Part shown: positions 5,154 to 12,650 of the stretch, in pieces
Layout of the letters: each line of letters opens with the position of its first letter
Numbering within the stretch: position 1 is the stretch's first letter
NCBI GenBank assembly: GCA_028282195.1
Contig: JANQII010000015.1
Coordinates: 1-44,139, forward strand
Direction: 5' to 3'
DNA length: 44,139 nt
Source of the DNA: Prolixibacteraceae bacterium
GTDB taxonomy: Bacteria > Bacteroidota > Bacteroidia > Bacteroidales > Prolixibacteraceae
Program-made: the position numbers and the translations under genes
Notes under the pieces: model-generated
Seen by the model: the letters and a program-made list of their open reading frames with translations, nothing else
What the model was told of the DNA's origin: nothing
The model's database searches: none

Positions 5154-5309
5154 GCATGCCTTATCATCCCAAGTCTTGATCTTTATGCTCCCGGCTGCTT
5201 TAAAAAATCCTTTATCCGGCAGCTGCCGGACTATGCGCGAATTTTTATGCATTGCCGGAAGCATAAAGATCTTCGACTTAACCAATATTTCATACTTGAC
5301 TTGACACTA
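5140..5309. mobile_element. MITE-like inverted-repeat element with TA duplication
   Basis: The ends are TA-GTGTCAAG (5140-5149) and CTTGACAC-TA (5300-5309): 8-bp terminal inverted repeats flanked by a TA on each side, as expected for IS630/Tc1-mariner type insertion. The whole 166-bp body is an imperfect palindrome. GATCTTTATGCTCCCGG (5178-5194) pairs with 5255-5271 at 16 of 17 positions, and the centre is a perfect 16-bp palindrome (5215-5230). It encodes no transposase. The right TA forms part of the TAG stop of the response regulator gene. Removing the element and one TA would leave TAA in the same frame. No second copy is in the window. Confidence 0.7.
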
Positions 5310-6041
5310 GACTCCACTAACATTTCCAGTAAAATTCAATGCTTTTAATACTGCATTTTTGTAACTCCTTCCAATTGGAAGTTCTTTTTCGGGCACTTCG
5401 ACCGTGTTAGCAGTAAATGCTTCAATTTTAGGAACTGAAACAATGTAAGACTTATGAATACGAAGGAAATGATCATTTGGAAGCTTAGCCTCCATGTGGA
5501 TCATACTGGTTTTAGTAATAATTTTACGCTTTTCTGTGTGAATCTGAACATATTCACTCAATCCTTCAATAAAAAGAATTTCACCAAGATGCACTTTTAC
5601 AACTTTCTTGTTTTCTTTTACATAAATAAAGGCATCATCTTTGGTCGGATCACCAGCACCGGCATTAACAACCTGTACATCATCCTGTTTTAACTGGTAG
5701 TACTTGTTTACAGACTTCAAAAATCGTTCAAAAGTTATTGGTTTCAGCAGATAATCAACAACATCAAGTTCAAACCCCTCGAGGGCATATTCCCTGTAAG
5801 CTGTTGTAACAATTACTTTCGGTGGATTTTTCAAGGTCTTCAGAAATTCAATACCAGTAATTTGAGGCATCTGAATATCCATAAACATCAGATCAACATT
5901 CTTTTCACGTAAAACATTTAAGGCTCTCATTGCATTGCTGCAGTCAGCAATAATTTCGAAATTTTCCAGTTTTTCAACATGTCCGCGAATCAAGTCCCTG
6001 GCCAAGGGTTCATCATCCACGATAATACACTTTGTTTTCAT
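5307..6041 (-). CDS. LytTR-family response regulator
   Basis: DNA-binding regulator, 244 residues. The receiver domain (about 1-120) has the acidic pair D9-D10, the phospho-acceptor D55 in LMFMDIQMP, a conserved TTAYREYALEGF segment and the LLKPI lysine. A LytTR DNA-binding domain follows (about 135-240, with ILFIEGLSEYVQIHT, FLRIHKSYIV and LPIGRSYK). It is the last gene of the six-gene operon that reads leftward from 11977, nine bases after the M2-like lipoprotein. It is the only response regulator in the cluster, so it is the likely common target of the three intact LytS kinases. All canonical receiver residues are present. The stop codon overlaps the end of the inverted-repeat element. Confidence 0.95.
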   Translation of the reverse strand: MKTKCIIVDDEPLARDLIRGHVEKLENFEIIADCSNAMRALNVLREKNVDLMFMDIQMPQITGIEFLKTLKNPPKVIVTTAYREYALEGFELDVVDYLLKPITFERFLKSVNKYYQLKQDDVQVVNAGAGDPTKDDAFIYVKENKKVVKVHLGEILFIEGLSEYVQIHTEKRKIITKTSMIHMEAKLPNDHFLRIHKSYIVSVPKIEAFTANTVEVPEKELPIGRSYKNAVLKALNFTGNVSGV

Positions 6042-6050
6042 CTTCGGGCT

Positions 6051-7790
6051 TTATTTTAAGTTCACTATGCTTTCAAAATAATATTTAGCTGTAAGTTTCT
6101 CGTCTGTTGCCTGTTCTATTAGTTCGTTCCATGGTAAAACATTACCATATTGGAAAATATTTTTTTTCATAAAGTCTCCAACAAACTCACTTTTAGACAC
6201 TTTAAGTGAATCACTTATTAATCCTTCGTATGAAGTTTTTATTTTATTGCTCAACTGAGCTGCAAATAACTCGGCAAAAAGTTCTGTTTGTGTTGCACCG
6301 GCCATTAACAGGAAATAATCATTCATTGCCCAATCACAGGCTAATATGCTATCAGGCTTATTATAGCCCAGGTATTTTGAGTTAAGTTCCCACCACAATT
6401 TCCCCAGGTTTTGATCTGGATTTTCATACAAAGTTTTTTCGAAAACGGCCATCGTTAGCATTTTCCTGCTTTTGGTAATTTTCTCAATCTGATATGCATG
6501 CTTACATACAATTTTCATTAATGCTGTATCCTTTGGGGCAACACCAACAAATTCTTTTAACCAGCCGTAGTGTACTATATCATTTGTAAAAAAATCCCCT
6601 ACACCTTCAGAAATAATAGGATTTGGATAGACCAGCAAGTATGGAAGATCACAAGAAACATGTTTAAAAGTTGCTGCCTGCGAACATAGAAACATCATTA
6701 CTTTTAACCCTTGCAGGTTATTGTTTACATTAGCAAGTATTCGCATATCTTTATAGGGATCAACATTAATAAAAAAGTTGATTTTAGAGTCCAGTTCATC
6801 AGAATTTATGATACTTTCATTAAGTATATCCTGAACATCTAAACCACACTCTTTGTAGAAGCTTGCAGAAATCTTTACAACATCTTTACCAACAAAAAGG
6901 TCATCAAGAATTTTAGAGAACTTGACAGGAAAGTAAATGAACCTTTCGTTTGTATAATGCCATGGTTTTATTTGTTCTTTTTCAATATTGAAACGTTTTG
7001 AGACAAACTTATCGATAATTCTTTTCGCTTTTTGAAACGCTTCAATAGTAGTTGTATCAAGTTCAAGTATAATATTTTCAACATCTTGCCTGTTTATTTC
7101 ATATGCAGCAAGCAAAAAATCATAATAATTTTCAAATCCACAATCACGCGCGAAGTCATTCCTCATTTTAATTAGTTCGATACAACAAGGATACATATCC
7201 TTTACCAGCTTCCTTTTGGCCTCAAATACTTTCTTAAAAAATTCAGGACTTGAAGAGTTTTTTCTAATCGAATCTATTTCATAATCAGAATAGACTTTAC
7301 CATCAATTTTTAGCTCATAATTTTGGACATAATGCAAGATATCCATTTTAAGTTTCAACAGCTTCTTGTATTTGTCCTGATCAAATTCACCGCTCAGAAT
7401 CTTCAGATAAATAATGTCTAATTGCCTTGCTAAGATTGAATCAGTAATCATGTCTGATTTTTTCATTTTTACCAAAAAGTCAAGATCCTTCTTTTCTGAT
7501 AAAACTTTCTGATCCAACTTTTTAAATTTGTCTATTTGAAATGATTGATCCTCAACCTCTCCATCCTTTTGAAAGTCTACGGCTAAATCAGCCAGTTTTG
7601 CATAATCAGATCTATTTCCAGACAGAGTTGCCTCCCAAAACAAAAGCGCTTCTTTCTTCTCCTGATGCCTGAATTGATCCTGCTTTTTTTCAATGTAGTT
7701 TCTGAGGATGTACTCAGCACTTTCCTGCTCGTTAATACATGCAGCAAAAAATAAAACAATCAGCAATATGCATAAAAACTTACTATTCAT
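6051..7790 (-). CDS. Lipoprotein related to M2 zinc peptidases, catalytic motif lost
   Basis: 579 residues with a lipoprotein signal (hydrophobic 5-16, Cys18). The body reads as a peptidase M2 (ACE-like) protein: RNDFARDCGFENYYDF (about 210-225), PWHYT (276-280), MRILANVN (349-356), DLPYLL (381-386), SEGVGD (394-399) and NPDQNLGKLWWELN (457-470). In active members the stretch just before DLPYLL holds HExxH. Here residues 365-376 (MMFLCSQAATFK) contain no His or Glu. The distal substrate/catalytic His-Tyr region before the ELFAAQL-type motif is also replaced (AGATQTELFAELFAAQL). Only the third-ligand Glu (E395) remains. It overlaps the preceding kinase by 8 bases, so co-expression is likely. 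Probably a membrane-anchored binding or sensing protein rather than a protease (inference). Confidence 0.78.
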   Translation of the reverse strand: MNSKFLCILLIVLFFAACINEQESAEYILRNYIEKKQDQFRHQEKKEALLFWEATLSGNRSDYAKLADLAVDFQKDGEVEDQSFQIDKFKKLDQKVLSEKKDLDFLVKMKKSDMITDSILARQLDIIYLKILSGEFDQDKYKKLLKLKMDILHYVQNYELKIDGKVYSDYEIDSIRKNSSSPEFFKKVFEAKRKLVKDMYPCCIELIKMRNDFARDCGFENYYDFLLAAYEINRQDVENIILELDTTTIEAFQKAKRIIDKFVSKRFNIEKEQIKPWHYTNERFIYFPVKFSKILDDLFVGKDVVKISASFYKECGLDVQDILNESIINSDELDSKINFFINVDPYKDMRILANVNNNLQGLKVMMFLCSQAATFKHVSCDLPYLLVYPNPIISEGVGDFFTNDIVHYGWLKEFVGVAPKDTALMKIVCKHAYQIEKITKSRKMLTMAVFEKTLYENPDQNLGKLWWELNSKYLGYNKPDSILACDWAMNDYFLLMAGATQTELFAELFAAQLSNKIKTSYEGLISDSLKVSKSEFVGDFMKKNIFQYGNVLPWNELIEQATDEKLTAKYYFESIVNLK

Positions 7791-8844
7791 AACCGTTATT
7801 AATATGTAGCTGAACCTGAAACCTGGTTTTCTCTTCTTTCACATTCAACTCATAACTTCCAGGATACATCAATTCTAATCGCTTACTGATGTTTGCCAAA
7901 CCAACACCATTACGTTTACCCTTTTTCTTTTTCCCATTTTCAGGTATGCTATTATCTGCTTCAAAGTCTAAACAATTTTTTTCCTGATCTATTTTAAGCC
8001 TAATCCACGACACACCGGGGTCATCGCTACTTCCATGCTTAAAACAATTCTCAACAAAAGTGAAAAGCAACATGGGTGGTATTAAATATCCTTCATCCTT
8101 AATATTTTTTTTCAGCTTCAGGTTTAACCTGTCTTCATATCTAATTTGCTCTAATTCAATATAGTTTTCAATCAGCTTAATCTCTTTGTCAAGTGGTACT
8201 TTTGTTGCATTACATTCATACAAAATATAATGAAACAGGTCACTTATTTTAGCTATAATTTCGGGTGTTTTCTCATTCTTTTGCAAGGCTAAAACATAAA
8301 GGTTATTCAAGGTATTGAATAAAAAATGAGGATTCAACTGGGCTTTTAATAATTGTAATTCCGATTCCAGTTTCCGTTTTTCAATCTCACTTTTTTCAGA
8401 TAAACTATTTACCCAATCTTTGTAAAATTTTATGGCGACAAACACAACCAATGGTGCCAATAACCAAACCACATTTATAAAAATAAGCTCTAACGACAAC
8501 CATACTTCAGGATGTAAGAAGTTCGGTATAAAGAATTGGTAAAAAACAAATTTTGTTACAGCCAGTTTAAAAAATGAGAAAAACAAAATGGTTGCCGGAA
8601 AAAGAACAATAAATAAAAAATTCTTCTTTCTCCACAAAAATCGGTATATCAACACATATACATTGAAATAAGTGTACAATACGTATACCGGGATGTTTAT
8701 TATAAAATTAAGTAAGAAAAAACGATAAGGGAAATTCTCATCATAGCTCGAAATAAAAGAACCCAGAAGCACAAAACTTGTCCAAAACAGAGCATGCATC
8801 AGGTACCTTATCTTTCGATATTTAAGATTTGGGATAGTAATCAT
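7783..8844 (-). CDS. LytS-type sensor histidine kinase
   Basis: Membrane histidine kinase of the LytS/YehU (HisKA_7TM-less, His_kinase) family, 353 residues. Four hydrophobic segments (about 15-35, 43-65, 75-95, 115-140) precede a short coiled coil (145-168). The phospho-acceptor motif QLNPHFLFNTLNNL has His at 173. The ATP-binding domain has the N-box VENCFKHGS (about 268) and a G-rich segment GVGLANISKRLELMYPG. It has no large periplasmic domain, so it probably senses within or at the membrane. It overlaps the upstream pseudokinase by 4 bases and the downstream lipoprotein by 8 bases, a pattern of translational coupling. Confidence 0.93.
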   Translation of the reverse strand: MITIPNLKYRKIRYLMHALFWTSFVLLGSFISSYDENFPYRFFLLNFIINIPVYVLYTYFNVYVLIYRFLWRKKNFLFIVLFPATILFFSFFKLAVTKFVFYQFFIPNFLHPEVWLSLELIFINVVWLLAPLVVFVAIKFYKDWVNSLSEKSEIEKRKLESELQLLKAQLNPHFLFNTLNNLYVLALQKNEKTPEIIAKISDLFHYILYECNATKVPLDKEIKLIENYIELEQIRYEDRLNLKLKKNIKDEGYLIPPMLLFTFVENCFKHGSSDDPGVSWIRLKIDQEKNCLDFEADNSIPENGKKKKGKRNGVGLANISKRLELMYPGSYELNVKEEKTRFQVQLHINNGYE

Positions 8845-9884
8845 TGTTTAAAAATTTCAATTGTCAATTCAACCCAACTATTGCTGTAGTTATAATCAAA
8901 GCTGCATTGATCCCCATAATAATATTCCAGCCGTTTTCTCAACTTATCAAATTCATCTTCTAATTTCGAATATGGATCGCCACTGTAATAATAGAAAGAC
9001 GTTAGAAATAGTAAATAGTTGTGTTCATTTTTAGCAAGTATCCTAAAATCATTTCCAACTTCTGAATAGGTAAACAGTTTCATTATCTTTTCTACTAAAG
9101 GAAAAAAGAAAAGAGCAGGTATTTTTCTGGACTCAAGATCCCCTGACCGGGCTACTTGAGTAATCATACCTAAGTTCTGAACCATTTTCTGAATATCTAT
9201 AAAACTCTCTATCAAGTTCAGTTCTTTGCTCAGGGTAATTCTATCACTGACCCGTTCAAGCATAATGCTGTTCATCAAATTAGAAATACGAATAATCATT
9301 TCAGGGGTTTTCTCCGATTTTTCCAAAGCCATTTCTTCTAAATAATTCATTACATTTAAAAGAAACCTGGGCTGAAGTTGATTTTTAATCAATTCCATTT
9401 CCGATTCAATGGTCTGCACCTGTAACTCATTCCTTTCATTTTCTGCAGCATACCAACTTTTCAAAACCTTTATAGAAAGAAACAGAATGATGATATAATG
9501 ATTTCCAATACCACTTATGATTACATTTTTGAAATCCAGGTAATTTTCTTCAGGTTGAACCTCAGTACTTAAATATTTGAAAATAAAATCGTTAGAACAG
9601 ATCAACTCAACAACAGAAAATCCATAAAGTAAACCGGAAAAGATAAGGAAAGCAATAATATATTTTTTGGTAAGGAAATAGCGTGGGACAAGCCAATATG
9701 CGATAATGTAAGTATGCGCTATAAAAATTGGAAGAGTTAAAATATAATAGAGCAACCAATCGATATAAAAAGATAGACCATACCCAATGCTTTTAATGTA
9801 AGTGAAAGAAACTACCCACACCACCCAAAATAAAATATGCTGTGAGCTCCTTGATAGTCTGATATTTTCAAATACCGGGTACAT
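8841..9884 (-). CDS. Degenerate LytS-type kinase (pseudokinase)
   Basis: 347 residues with the same plan as its neighbours: four membrane segments, a coiled coil, then the kinase region. The phospho-acceptor motif is LQPRFLLNVMNYLEEM. Arg173 occupies exactly the position of His173 in the next gene. The N-box ENCFKHG is replaced by VEKIMKLFTYSEVG, and the G-box reduces to EFDKLRKRLEYYYG. The ORF is complete, with no frameshift, and overlaps its neighbour, so it looks maintained rather than decaying. It cannot be expected to autophosphorylate. A role as heterodimer partner or signal-binding subunit of the adjacent kinases is an inference. Confidence 0.88.
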   Translation of the reverse strand: MYPVFENIRLSRSSQHILFWVVWVVSFTYIKSIGYGLSFYIDWLLYYILTLPIFIAHTYIIAYWLVPRYFLTKKYIIAFLIFSGLLYGFSVVELICSNDFIFKYLSTEVQPEENYLDFKNVIISGIGNHYIIILFLSIKVLKSWYAAENERNELQVQTIESEMELIKNQLQPRFLLNVMNYLEEMALEKSEKTPEMIIRISNLMNSIMLERVSDRITLSKELNLIESFIDIQKMVQNLGMITQVARSGDLESRKIPALFFFPLVEKIMKLFTYSEVGNDFRILAKNEHNYLLFLTSFYYYSGDPYSKLEDEFDKLRKRLEYYYGDQCSFDYNYSNSWVELTIEIFKQ

Positions 9885-10939
9885 TAAAGTTTTATCTTCA
9901 AATTCACTAAAAATTCAGTATTCAGGTCTTTATATTCAAACTCATACCTTCCTTGATACAAAAGCTCAAGTCTCTTTTTTAAATTGTTTAAACCTGCCCC
10001 TGTTGTTTGCACTAACGAGCTGGAAGGTTGTGATGGCTTACTGTTCCGAACCACAAAGCTCAGCAATTGATTATCACAGCTCAATTTGAGCTCTATCCAG
10101 GGTGATCCTGCATCAATGGCGCTCCCATGTTTAAAACAATTTTCTATAAGTGGAAAAAATAACATCGGAGCAATTCTTGAATTGCAATTTTCTGCTTCAA
10201 TTGCAAAGTCTGTCTTTAATCGTTTCCCGTAACGTATCTGCTCAATGTAGATGTAATCTTTTATTAACTCAACCTCATCCCTCAAAACAACCTCATCACC
10301 CTGATAATCAACCAACAAATATTTCAATACTTTCTTTAGTCTTTGTATAATCTCAATCGTTTTAGCATTATTTTTTAAAGAAAGAGCATATAAGTTATTA
10401 AGGGTATTGAATAAAAAATGAGGGTCAAACTGTGATTGTAGCAACTTTTGACGGGCCTCTGCATTACGGGACTCAACCAGAGTACGCTGATGTTCTGCAT
10501 AAAGCCAATCTTTTGTAAATTTTGCTACTGCAAAAACAGCAACAATAAAAGACATGTCTTTCGTATTTATTAGCATAGTTCTCCAACTAAACCGGGCAGT
10601 TTCTTCAACCGTACCTGGATTAATGCTTGATGCAAAAACGTAATCAGAAATTAAAAACTTTAGATAAGAAAGCAGGAAACCTACAGCGATAAAAGCCAAT
10701 ACAAAAGAAAGAAAATAACGCTTAAACAAAATCAGGGGTACCAAAAGAAAGATTGTTATATAGCCATAGGCAAAAAAGAAAAAAGCATTGGTAAGGGTAA
10801 TAAAAAAAGCGTTAACAAAATCTTCTTTTCCCGTTCTTAAAAAAACGATTAAAGTAAACAGGCTTACTAATAGGACAAACAACAAAACATGCCTTAATCC
10901 CCTGTAAAAAAGATTGTTATCAAAAAGAATTTTCCCCAT
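9884..10939 (-). CDS. LytS-type sensor histidine kinase
   Basis: 351 residues, third kinase of the operon when read leftward from the promoter side it is second. Four hydrophobic segments lie in residues 15-145, then a coiled coil and the motif FDPHFLFNTLNNLYALSL with phospho-acceptor His174. The N-box IENCFKHGS is intact, and GAGLNNLKKRLELLYQG forms the G-box. Its stop codon overlaps the start of the pseudokinase gene by one base, and the preceding kinase ends three bases upstream. Catalytic residues appear complete. The signal is unknown; lack of an extracellular sensor domain suggests a membrane-borne stimulus (inference). Confidence 0.93.
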   Translation of the reverse strand: MGKILFDNNLFYRGLRHVLLFVLLVSLFTLIVFLRTGKEDFVNAFFITLTNAFFFFAYGYITIFLLVPLILFKRYFLSFVLAFIAVGFLLSYLKFLISDYVFASSINPGTVEETARFSWRTMLINTKDMSFIVAVFAVAKFTKDWLYAEHQRTLVESRNAEARQKLLQSQFDPHFLFNTLNNLYALSLKNNAKTIEIIQRLKKVLKYLLVDYQGDEVVLRDEVELIKDYIYIEQIRYGKRLKTDFAIEAENCNSRIAPMLFFPLIENCFKHGSAIDAGSPWIELKLSCDNQLLSFVVRNSKPSQPSSSLVQTTGAGLNNLKKRLELLYQGRYEFEYKDLNTEFLVNLKIKL

Positions 10940-10942
10940 TAA

Positions 10943-11977
10943 CTATGTAACGTTCAACTTTAACTCTACCAGGAAACGATCTTCTAATCGCTTAATCTTC
11001 AATTTGTGAGAATCTTTATATAGAAGGTCCAGCCTACGTTTTACATTCTGTAACCCTATACCCTGCATATTTTCATTACTATTTTTTGCAGTCGTTGAAA
11101 TACTGTTCTCTGCCCGAAAGATAACTTTGTTTTTCTTAGCTTTCAGCTTAATTTTTATCCACGGCGAACTGGCATCGGAAGAACTCCCATGTTTGAAACA
11201 ATTCTCCAGAAAAGTAATGAACAACATGGGTGCTACTTCCTTCCCAACAAGTTCCCCTTCAACTTCAAATGATATATTCAGCCTTTTATCATATCTCAAT
11301 TTTTCAAGATCAATGTAGTTTCGCAATAAACGAACTTCTTTGTCCAACTTGATAAACTGATCGTTGCATTCATACAAAATGATACTCAGTAATTCTGAGA
11401 TTTTTGCAATTCCCTCCGAAGTTTTAACCGATTGATCTAATGACAACGCATAAAGGTTATTCATGGTATTGAAAAGAAAGTGCGGATGAATTTGGGCTTT
11501 TAAAAGTTTTAATTCAGTTTTCAGGTTTTGCTTTTCAATTTCCAGATTTTCCCGCTTTTGTTCTACCGATGTTTTTACAAGCTTAATTACAATTGCAGCA
11601 CCAACCATAAAGCTGGTTTCCAAAAACATATACAAAAAGCTCAGGTCAAACAATTTACTTAACTCCACAGTTAAATCGTTTACCAACCTAAGGGTTATCC
11701 GCTGAAAAAGAACAAAAATAAATAACGTAAAAAAACCTGCAACCAGCAGTATTGGCTTATTACTTTTAAAATAGCCTGGCAAAATTCCATAGATGATAAC
11801 ATAGGCTGCAATCATCATAAACGGAAGCATAAACAATGACTCTTTGATGTAAAAGAAGTAGTTATCACCATACTTCCCATACAACAAACCAAATATCAAA
11901 ACATAGCACATCCAAAACATGCCATGTTGCAAAATTCGGTTATTCAAATTCGGAAAGATTGTTTTTTCAACAGCCAT
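10943..11977 (-). CDS. LytS-type sensor histidine kinase, first gene of operon
   Basis: Kinase of about 344 residues with four membrane segments, a coiled coil (about 130-160) and AQIHPHFLFNTMNNLYALSL with the phospho-acceptor His at 166. The N-box LENCFKHGS and G-box GIGLQNVKRRLDLLY are intact. An in-frame ATG nine codons upstream (12002-12004) gives MYDVVCFVT in front. I prefer the MAVEKTIFPN start because its N-terminal length then matches the three sister kinases. This is the promoter-proximal gene of the six-gene leftward operon. No clear TAnnTTTG box was found in the 160 bases before it. Confidence 0.92.
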   Translation of the reverse strand: MAVEKTIFPNLNNRILQHGMFWMCYVLIFGLLYGKYGDNYFFYIKESLFMLPFMMIAAYVIIYGILPGYFKSNKPILLVAGFFTLFIFVLFQRITLRLVNDLTVELSKLFDLSFLYMFLETSFMVGAAIVIKLVKTSVEQKRENLEIEKQNLKTELKLLKAQIHPHFLFNTMNNLYALSLDQSVKTSEGIAKISELLSIILYECNDQFIKLDKEVRLLRNYIDLEKLRYDKRLNISFEVEGELVGKEVAPMLFITFLENCFKHGSSSDASSPWIKIKLKAKKNKVIFRAENSISTTAKNSNENMQGIGLQNVKRRLDLLYKDSHKLKIKRLEDRFLVELKLNVT

Positions 11978-12082
11978 TGTTACAAAGCAAACAACATCAT
12001 ACAATTATAAAATTATTCAATTTATTAATGACAGCATCATTCTACCACGAACAACATCGAAGTACTACTCAAACCCAGGCAC

Positions 12083-12164: not shown

Positions 12165-12650
12165 CTAAATTTGAGTTCTGTATTTTTCTTTAATTAAATT
12201 CGGCAGATAACAAGCAATAAGGCCTAATAGTTCTTTTTCAGTTTTAGGCGATTGAGTAATTATCCGTTGTGCATCCAATTGATCTTTGTCAATAACTGCA
12301 AGGTTAAAATTTTCTTCAATCTCCTGGTACTTATGACTAATTTTTTTCACGCCAAAAGTTCCCCGGTTACAGAAATACTCAACCTCAAAGTTGGGTCCTT
12401 TAACAATGAAGTTTATACACTTCTTCTTATTCTCAATTCCAATATGAATAGGACGTTCAGCATGTTCATACGTAAGAAGATGTGTTTGAAAGCTTGTCCC
12501 TGAAATTTCAAGTGGGCTGGTTGAAGTTTTAATTTCATAGGTTCCTAAAGAGGTCATTGAATCCCCCTTAATGCCTGAACCTTCTCCTGCTTTTACATTG
12601 ATAACAGCACACAAAAATACAATTACCAATAATGTTAGTTTCGTTTTCAT
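12165..12650 (-). CDS. Small secreted protein of unknown function
   Basis: 161 residues with a clear Sec signal peptide (MKTKLTLLVIVFLCAVINVKA, cleavage near 21-22). The mature part is polar, with two cysteines (in KKKCINF and EYFCNRG) that could form a disulfide, and it is predicted to be mainly beta in the first two thirds. I do not recognise a family. It has its own -7 box and terminator, so it is not strictly in the kinase operon, although it lies directly upstream on the same strand. It could be an exported signal, binding protein or target linked to those kinases, but only position suggests this. Confidence 0.8.
   Translation of the reverse strand: MKTKLTLLVIVFLCAVINVKAGEGSGIKGDSMTSLGTYEIKTSTSPLEISGTSFQTHLLTYEHAERPIHIGIENKKKCINFIVKGPNFEVEYFCNRGTFGVKKISHKYQEIEENFNLAVIDKDQLDAQRIITQSPKTEKELLGLIACYLPNLIKEKYRTQI

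Follow-up and report, generated by a model that had tools for sequence, protein, structure and literature searches.

An ACE-fold lipoprotein without a cutting site as a probable input component of a LytS-type kinase in Prolixibacteraceae

What a peptidase-like protein that has lost the means to cut might do inside a kinase operon is the question raised by the window, the whole stretch of 44,139 nucleotides analysed here from a Prolixibacteraceae contig. An intact open reading frame of 579 codons with an ATG start (6051..7790, minus strand) encodes M2L, an M2-like (ACE-fold) lipoprotein of 579 residues, within an array that comprises four PF06580 kinases and a single Response_reg+LytTR regulator, every gene being on the minus strand, in agreement with the preliminary description of the locus. 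Its cutting site is gone, its predicted fold is that of ACE, and it is co-inherited with one particular kinase, HK1; M2L is therefore probably part of the signal detector of HK1 and not an enzyme.

Fold and active site of M2L

The landmarks of the M2 family occur in M2L in the order first described (PWHYT at residue 276, MRILANVN at 349, DLPYLL at 381, SEGVGD at 394 and LWWELN at 465), together with a lipoprotein signal, the cysteine of which (Cys18, codon at 7737..7739 on the minus strand as computed from the start of the open reading frame) is invariant in all 15 members of clade A, defined below. The location of M2L is presumably periplasmic. A search with the PF01401 (Peptidase_M2) profile, which the preliminary description had proposed as a check, gave no match to the M2L of the window at E≤0.1; its sole Pfam match was PF02074 (M32) at 23.6 bits, below the cut-off of 25.1, and a search of NCBIfam gave no match. 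The relatives of M2L do match PF01401: five of the 15 clade A members at E≤0.01, and five of six tested whole-length relatives from other Bacteroidales, which were found by BLAST with E values down to 7e-75 (L002, itself scoring 98 bits with PF01401); the sixth, L007, instead passes PF01432 (M3). The AlphaFold2 model of M2L, built with 25 aligned sequences (pLDDT 84, pTM 0.85), was matched by Foldseek to ACE and AnCE over its whole length with E of about 1e-12 at approximately 14% identity, a comparison with ACE having been proposed as a check. The best 50 matches listed were all ACE, AnCE or ACE2 chains with TMq of 0.67-0.79 (mostly 0.73-0.79 for ACE and AnCE, 0.67-0.70 for ACE2). M2L is assigned to M2 because its homologues pass PF01401 and because of its predicted fold; in the model the M2 fold is present although the M2 profile misses the protein.

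At the place of HExxH, as located by alignment to relatives, M2L has FLCSQ (residues 367-371; 6678..6692, minus strand), and residues 365-376, MMFLCSQAATFK, include neither His nor Glu, as had been noticed previously. E395 (6606..6608, minus strand), which corresponds to the third zinc ligand, is kept, a point that had gone unmentioned. An intact motif elsewhere in the protein was looked for by pattern search: none of HExxH, HxxEH, HxxxH and HxH occurs anywhere among the six His residues of M2L, and the same search revealed no metal motif that could take its place. The earlier impression that the distal His-Tyr substrate region is also changed holds. In residues 486-507 (6270..6335, minus strand), the canonical K, H and YYHNY, which 91-92 of the 92 canonical M2 sequences have at each column, are replaced by N490, Y492 and ATQTE (499-503). 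Relative to these 92 sequences, the H353-type residue has become I337, the K-type residue N490 and the H513-type residue Y492; the H353- and H513-type residues are gone in 15/15 clade A members, and the K-type residue is gone across the clade too. The persistence of E395 and of the helix cysteine C369 could be taken to mean that M2L still works as an enzyme, through another active site that has escaped recognition, but the failure to find an alternative metal motif by pattern and the loss of all three types of substrate residue across the clade make this extremely improbable.

Motif states among the relatives of M2L

A match to M2L was found in 24 of 140 genomes of the family. Clade A consists of the window and 14 relatives, one per genome (15/140), the relatives coming from metagenome-assembled genomes mostly titled Prolixibacteraceae or Bacteroidetes; within the family, the closest relative of the window M2L is only 36% identical to it. 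A more distant form, clade B, is found in five genomes (L078-L081, L083). Canonical M2 alone is present in three genomes (L074, L075, L077), and G069 has both a clade A member and a canonical M2 (L076). A scan of contigs with the window M2L alone retrieved no relative; when the clade alignment was used instead, 31 loci were obtained, 13 of them on contigs already included and left out of the counts. A search of the whole class added two full-length-like matches (G664, G694), the remainder being mostly weak and partial. In G077 (L082, 6745-7683), which supplies the last of the 24 matches, most of M2L is gone and an N-terminal remnant is fused into the frame of the regulator, with no histidine kinase match in the 14-kb region; this may be either a true deletion or an assembly join.

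In the M2 tree, computed from 39 rows with the motif columns removed and rooted at the midpoint, clade A (100/98) and clade B (100/100) are both well delimited, and together they are split from other M2 sequences (100/100). HExxH with the third Glu is present in 98 Bacteroidales M2 sequences, 92 of them outside the kinase-linked clades; 5/5 members of clade B have it. In clade A, the zinc ligands are kept without the catalytic Glu in 12/15 members (HLGGH in nine, HLCGH in two and HLAGH in one, all with the third Glu). L063 has RLCGF and its third Glu has become Ala; zinc binding is lost in it and in the window. Loss of the zinc motif, as originally proposed, is thus correct for the window M2L but describes an end state only, and within clade A the FLCSQ form is confined to the window. 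One clade A member, L061, has HEGGH with the third Glu; it is nested among HLxGH members, and therefore the catalytic Glu was either regained or lost several times; its other substrate residues are lost as in the rest. The codon in question in L061 (gene at 7729-9462) is GAG, versus CTN or TTG in relatives.

These motif states bear on the idea that M2L is purely a kinase-binding inhibitor or scaffold that has no ligand, its fold being a recycled surface. Such accessory proteins are said to exist, CpxP of the kinase CpxA being the reported case, and the M2L of the window has indeed lost its active-site residues; but the retention of all three zinc ligands in 12/15 clade A members despite the missing catalytic Glu points to a continuing importance of the pocket in those members, and the scaffold role appears quite unlikely.

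Ratios of nonsynonymous to synonymous substitution could be estimated for two of four pairs of relatives, synonymous sites being saturated in the other two. For L060/L062 and L069/L070, respectively, dN/dS is 0.147 and 0.093 for M2L, 0.034 and 0.059 for HK1, and 0.051 and 0.054 for the regulator; the values for M2L are above those of its neighbours, yet well below 1. The view of M2L as a membrane-anchored pseudopeptidase, put forward in the preliminary description, is well supported by sequence and model together, because the open reading frame is intact, the cysteine invariant, the predicted fold that of ACE, the metal site and substrate residues lost, and dN/dS low.

Other M2 loci yielded observations of their own. 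A second pseudo-M2 lineage consists of 14 orphan M2-like proteins (L086, L087, L121, L154, L158, L169, L170, L177, L181, L185, L189, L191, L192, L196) in which HExxH is replaced by YExxF (13) or YExxI (1) and the third zinc Glu by Asp, while K, H and mostly YHNY are kept; no kinase was seen beside its members. L088 bears the title Chitinophaga pinensis although it is the contig of G082 in the family of the window, and L100 is titled Candidatus Uhrbacteria but carries a Bacteroidales-type M2; both titles look wrong.

HK1 and the surrounding operon

HK1 (7783..8844, minus strand), a LytS-type (PF06580) kinase of 353 residues, overlaps the start of M2L by eight bases at its 3′ end and keeps the LytS motifs LNPHFLFN (with the phospho-acceptor His), FVENCFKH and GVGLANISKRL (ATP-binding). 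The gene order HK1, M2L, LytTR regulator on one strand is conserved in 15/15 clade A loci; in 13 of these the HK1 and M2L genes share 4-14 bases, and in the other two they are separated by gaps of 18 and 84 bases. Orthologues of HK1 (305-785 bits) occur in the 15 clade A genomes and in none of the 125 others, the next best match being 244.6 bits. In clade B, a kinase lies directly upstream of M2L in 5/5 loci; the regulator adjoins the pair in one (L081) and not in three of the four visible loci, L083 being at a contig end. Other M2 metallopeptidases of the Bacteroidales are homologous to M2L over the whole length but differ in having an intact site and in having no kinase directly upstream in any of 80 loci of the order examined with flanks of up to 4 kb (at least 1 kb upstream being in view in 76, at least 3 kb in 64, and less than 300 bases in two). 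A kinase is found elsewhere in the flank of two of these 80 (convergent in L120, downstream in L173).

The trees of the two partners are largely congruent. In a midpoint-rooted tree of 55 kinases, HK1 (99/98) and the clade B kinases (100/100) are joined as one clade (98/88). Five pairs (L060-L062, L064-L073, L066-L071, L061-L068 and L069-L070) are common to the HK1 and M2L trees, and the branching order within clade B is identical in both; the trees differ in that the window is the sister of L063 in one and basal in the other. The supposition that M2L talks to the LytS kinases gains comparative support from adjacency, co-occurrence and trees for one of them, HK1, with which it would interact.

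Mere linkage would also account for the co-occurrence and the tree congruence, since adjacent genes are inherited together anyway. M2L may be an output of the system or a bystander transcribed with it, a periplasmic protein that binds peptides or scavenges without regulating HK1, as operon co-inheritance alone would give the adjacency and the co-occurrence. This is considered unlikely in view of the loci that keep the other parts without both HK1 and M2L, the absence of any case of HK1 without M2L among the 140 genomes, and residues that the M2L-linked kinases share in their predicted outer loops.

The other parts of the operon in the window, all on the minus strand, are the 244-residue LytTR response regulator (RR, 5307..6041; PF00072 at 82.4 bits, PF04397 at 64.3 bits), HK2 (8841..9884), HK3 (9884..10939), HK4 (10943..12004, with a TTG start as listed) and, upstream of the kinases, O161 (12165..12650). 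HK3 and HK4 are LytS-type kinases; HK2 is a LytS-type pseudokinase, in which the phospho-acceptor His has become Arg (QPRFLLN), a replacement observed in every aligned member (7/7: window, L060, L062, L064, L069, L070, L073). O161 is a small protein without a Pfam match, with a signal-peptide-like N-terminus and a LIACYFP-type C-terminus, that often precedes LytS arrays. It was considered as a specific partner of M2L and rejected, being present in 119/140 family genomes and in 11 of 20 regions without M2L. A LytTR binding site upstream of O161 was likewise dropped, as the two 9-base repeats of the window are not common to relatives. In the 20 regions around O161 homologues, 11 have O161, kinases and RR without HK1 or M2L, one has O161 and RR, and eight have neither arrangement; the kinases of the 11 regions are of the HK2, HK3 and HK4 types, with none of the HK1 type. 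In G001 and G006, of the same genus as the window, fumarase, aminotransferase, RR, RidA-like protein and DNA ligase genes are syntenic, and O161, HK1-HK4 and M2L are absent at this place. These comparisons indicate that HK1 and M2L are present or absent jointly, as a unit distinct from the other parts. The loci L257 and L258, from same-genus genomes, have an orphan LytTR regulator between the aminotransferase and RidA-like genes, with no kinase in the region examined.

The retention of only the regulator in G001 and G006 might suggest that the M2L gene of the window is decaying and in the course of being lost, as might the greater loss of motif residues in the window and L063 than in the rest, both of which have long branches (that of the window is the longest of clade A). 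Decay is nevertheless very unlikely, given the intact reading frame, the confident full-length fold, the preserved overlap with HK1 and the purifying selection in related pairs.

Many LytS kinases here have no sensor domain, and the input is known for few of them. HK1 appears to have no sensor domain of its own, because it has only four predicted membrane helices (residues 6-35, 40-70, 75-103 and 118-169 in a weak model with pLDDT 68 and pTM 0.46) and short outer loops. The first predicted outer loop (residues 34-44; 8713..8745, minus strand) has FPYxF, and another (residues 104-117; 8494..8535, minus strand) has P..L.P..W and is a candidate docking site for M2L. Both motifs are present in 14/14 readable HK1 sequences, and WPxxF with P..W in 5/5 clade B kinases; the signature was absent from all 20 of the other family LytS kinases compared and from all 15 HK2-HK4 sequences. 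Common descent of HK1 and the clade B kinases may explain the shared residues.

A proposed input role and its precedents

On balance, M2L is best explained as an ACE-fold protein, catalytically dead and anchored in the membrane, which acts as an extracytoplasmic input (or regulatory) subunit of HK1. The ancestor would have been a kinase-linked peptidase with HExxH, the state still seen in clade B; in clade A, the catalytic Glu would have been lost first and the zinc site subsequently in the window and L063. The ACE-like cleft of M2L may accommodate a ligand, with a short peptide as the likeliest candidate, as the peptide-binding sensor first envisaged would do; the ligand would change the contact of M2L with the outer loops of HK1, and the changed contact would set the phosphorylation of the neighbouring LytTR regulator, whichever the direction of control. 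That a peptidase fold was turned into a receptor in stages, its cleft reading a peptide to drive a dedicated LytS kinase, is proposed tentatively; the stages, equally tentative when taken jointly with the receptor reading, would be kinase-linked HExxH proteins (clade B), zinc-keeping HLGGH proteins (12/15) and metal-free proteins (window, L063).

By analogy, M2L could dock on the outer loops of HK1 with the ligand altering the contact, as QseG does with QseE by means of another fold; QseG is to our knowledge not an ACE-fold protein. In the QseE-QseG-QseF system of E. coli the lipoprotein QseG acts through the periplasmic part of the kinase, and the gene order is kinase, lipoprotein, response regulator (PMC6075780). 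The M2L locus has the same gene order and a conserved lipoprotein cysteine, and control of the kinase by the lipoprotein would be a further likeness; in contrast, QseF works with sigma-54 promoters, whereas the window encodes LytS and LytTR families (PMC6075780). Dead ACE homologues are already known in animals, as are accessory lipoproteins of kinases. ACE3 has the M2 fold with HQMGH, a motif similar to the HLGGH seen in relatives of M2L (PMC1925091), and ACN-1 has the M2 fold with its catalytic residues lost (PMC4769152); neither is known to be linked to a histidine kinase, and the M2L of the window differs further in having lost both His ligands too. With its PF06580 kinases and Response_reg+LytTR regulator, the window resembles other LytS/LytTR systems, but it adds a pseudopeptidase lipoprotein and several kinases, one without the phospho-acceptor His. 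No report of an M2/ACE-fold protein with a histidine kinase was found in literature searches that drew mostly on records without full texts and covered subscription papers in part.

If M2L is an input subunit of HK1, it would exemplify how an enzyme, first recruited and later disabled, can become the sensor of a bacterial signalling system, the intermediates having survived in one family. It would give bacterial ACE-like proteins a function and provide a simple system for asking what the ACE cleft binds without cutting, and sensor-less LytS kinases would have a dedicated input subunit that is directly testable.
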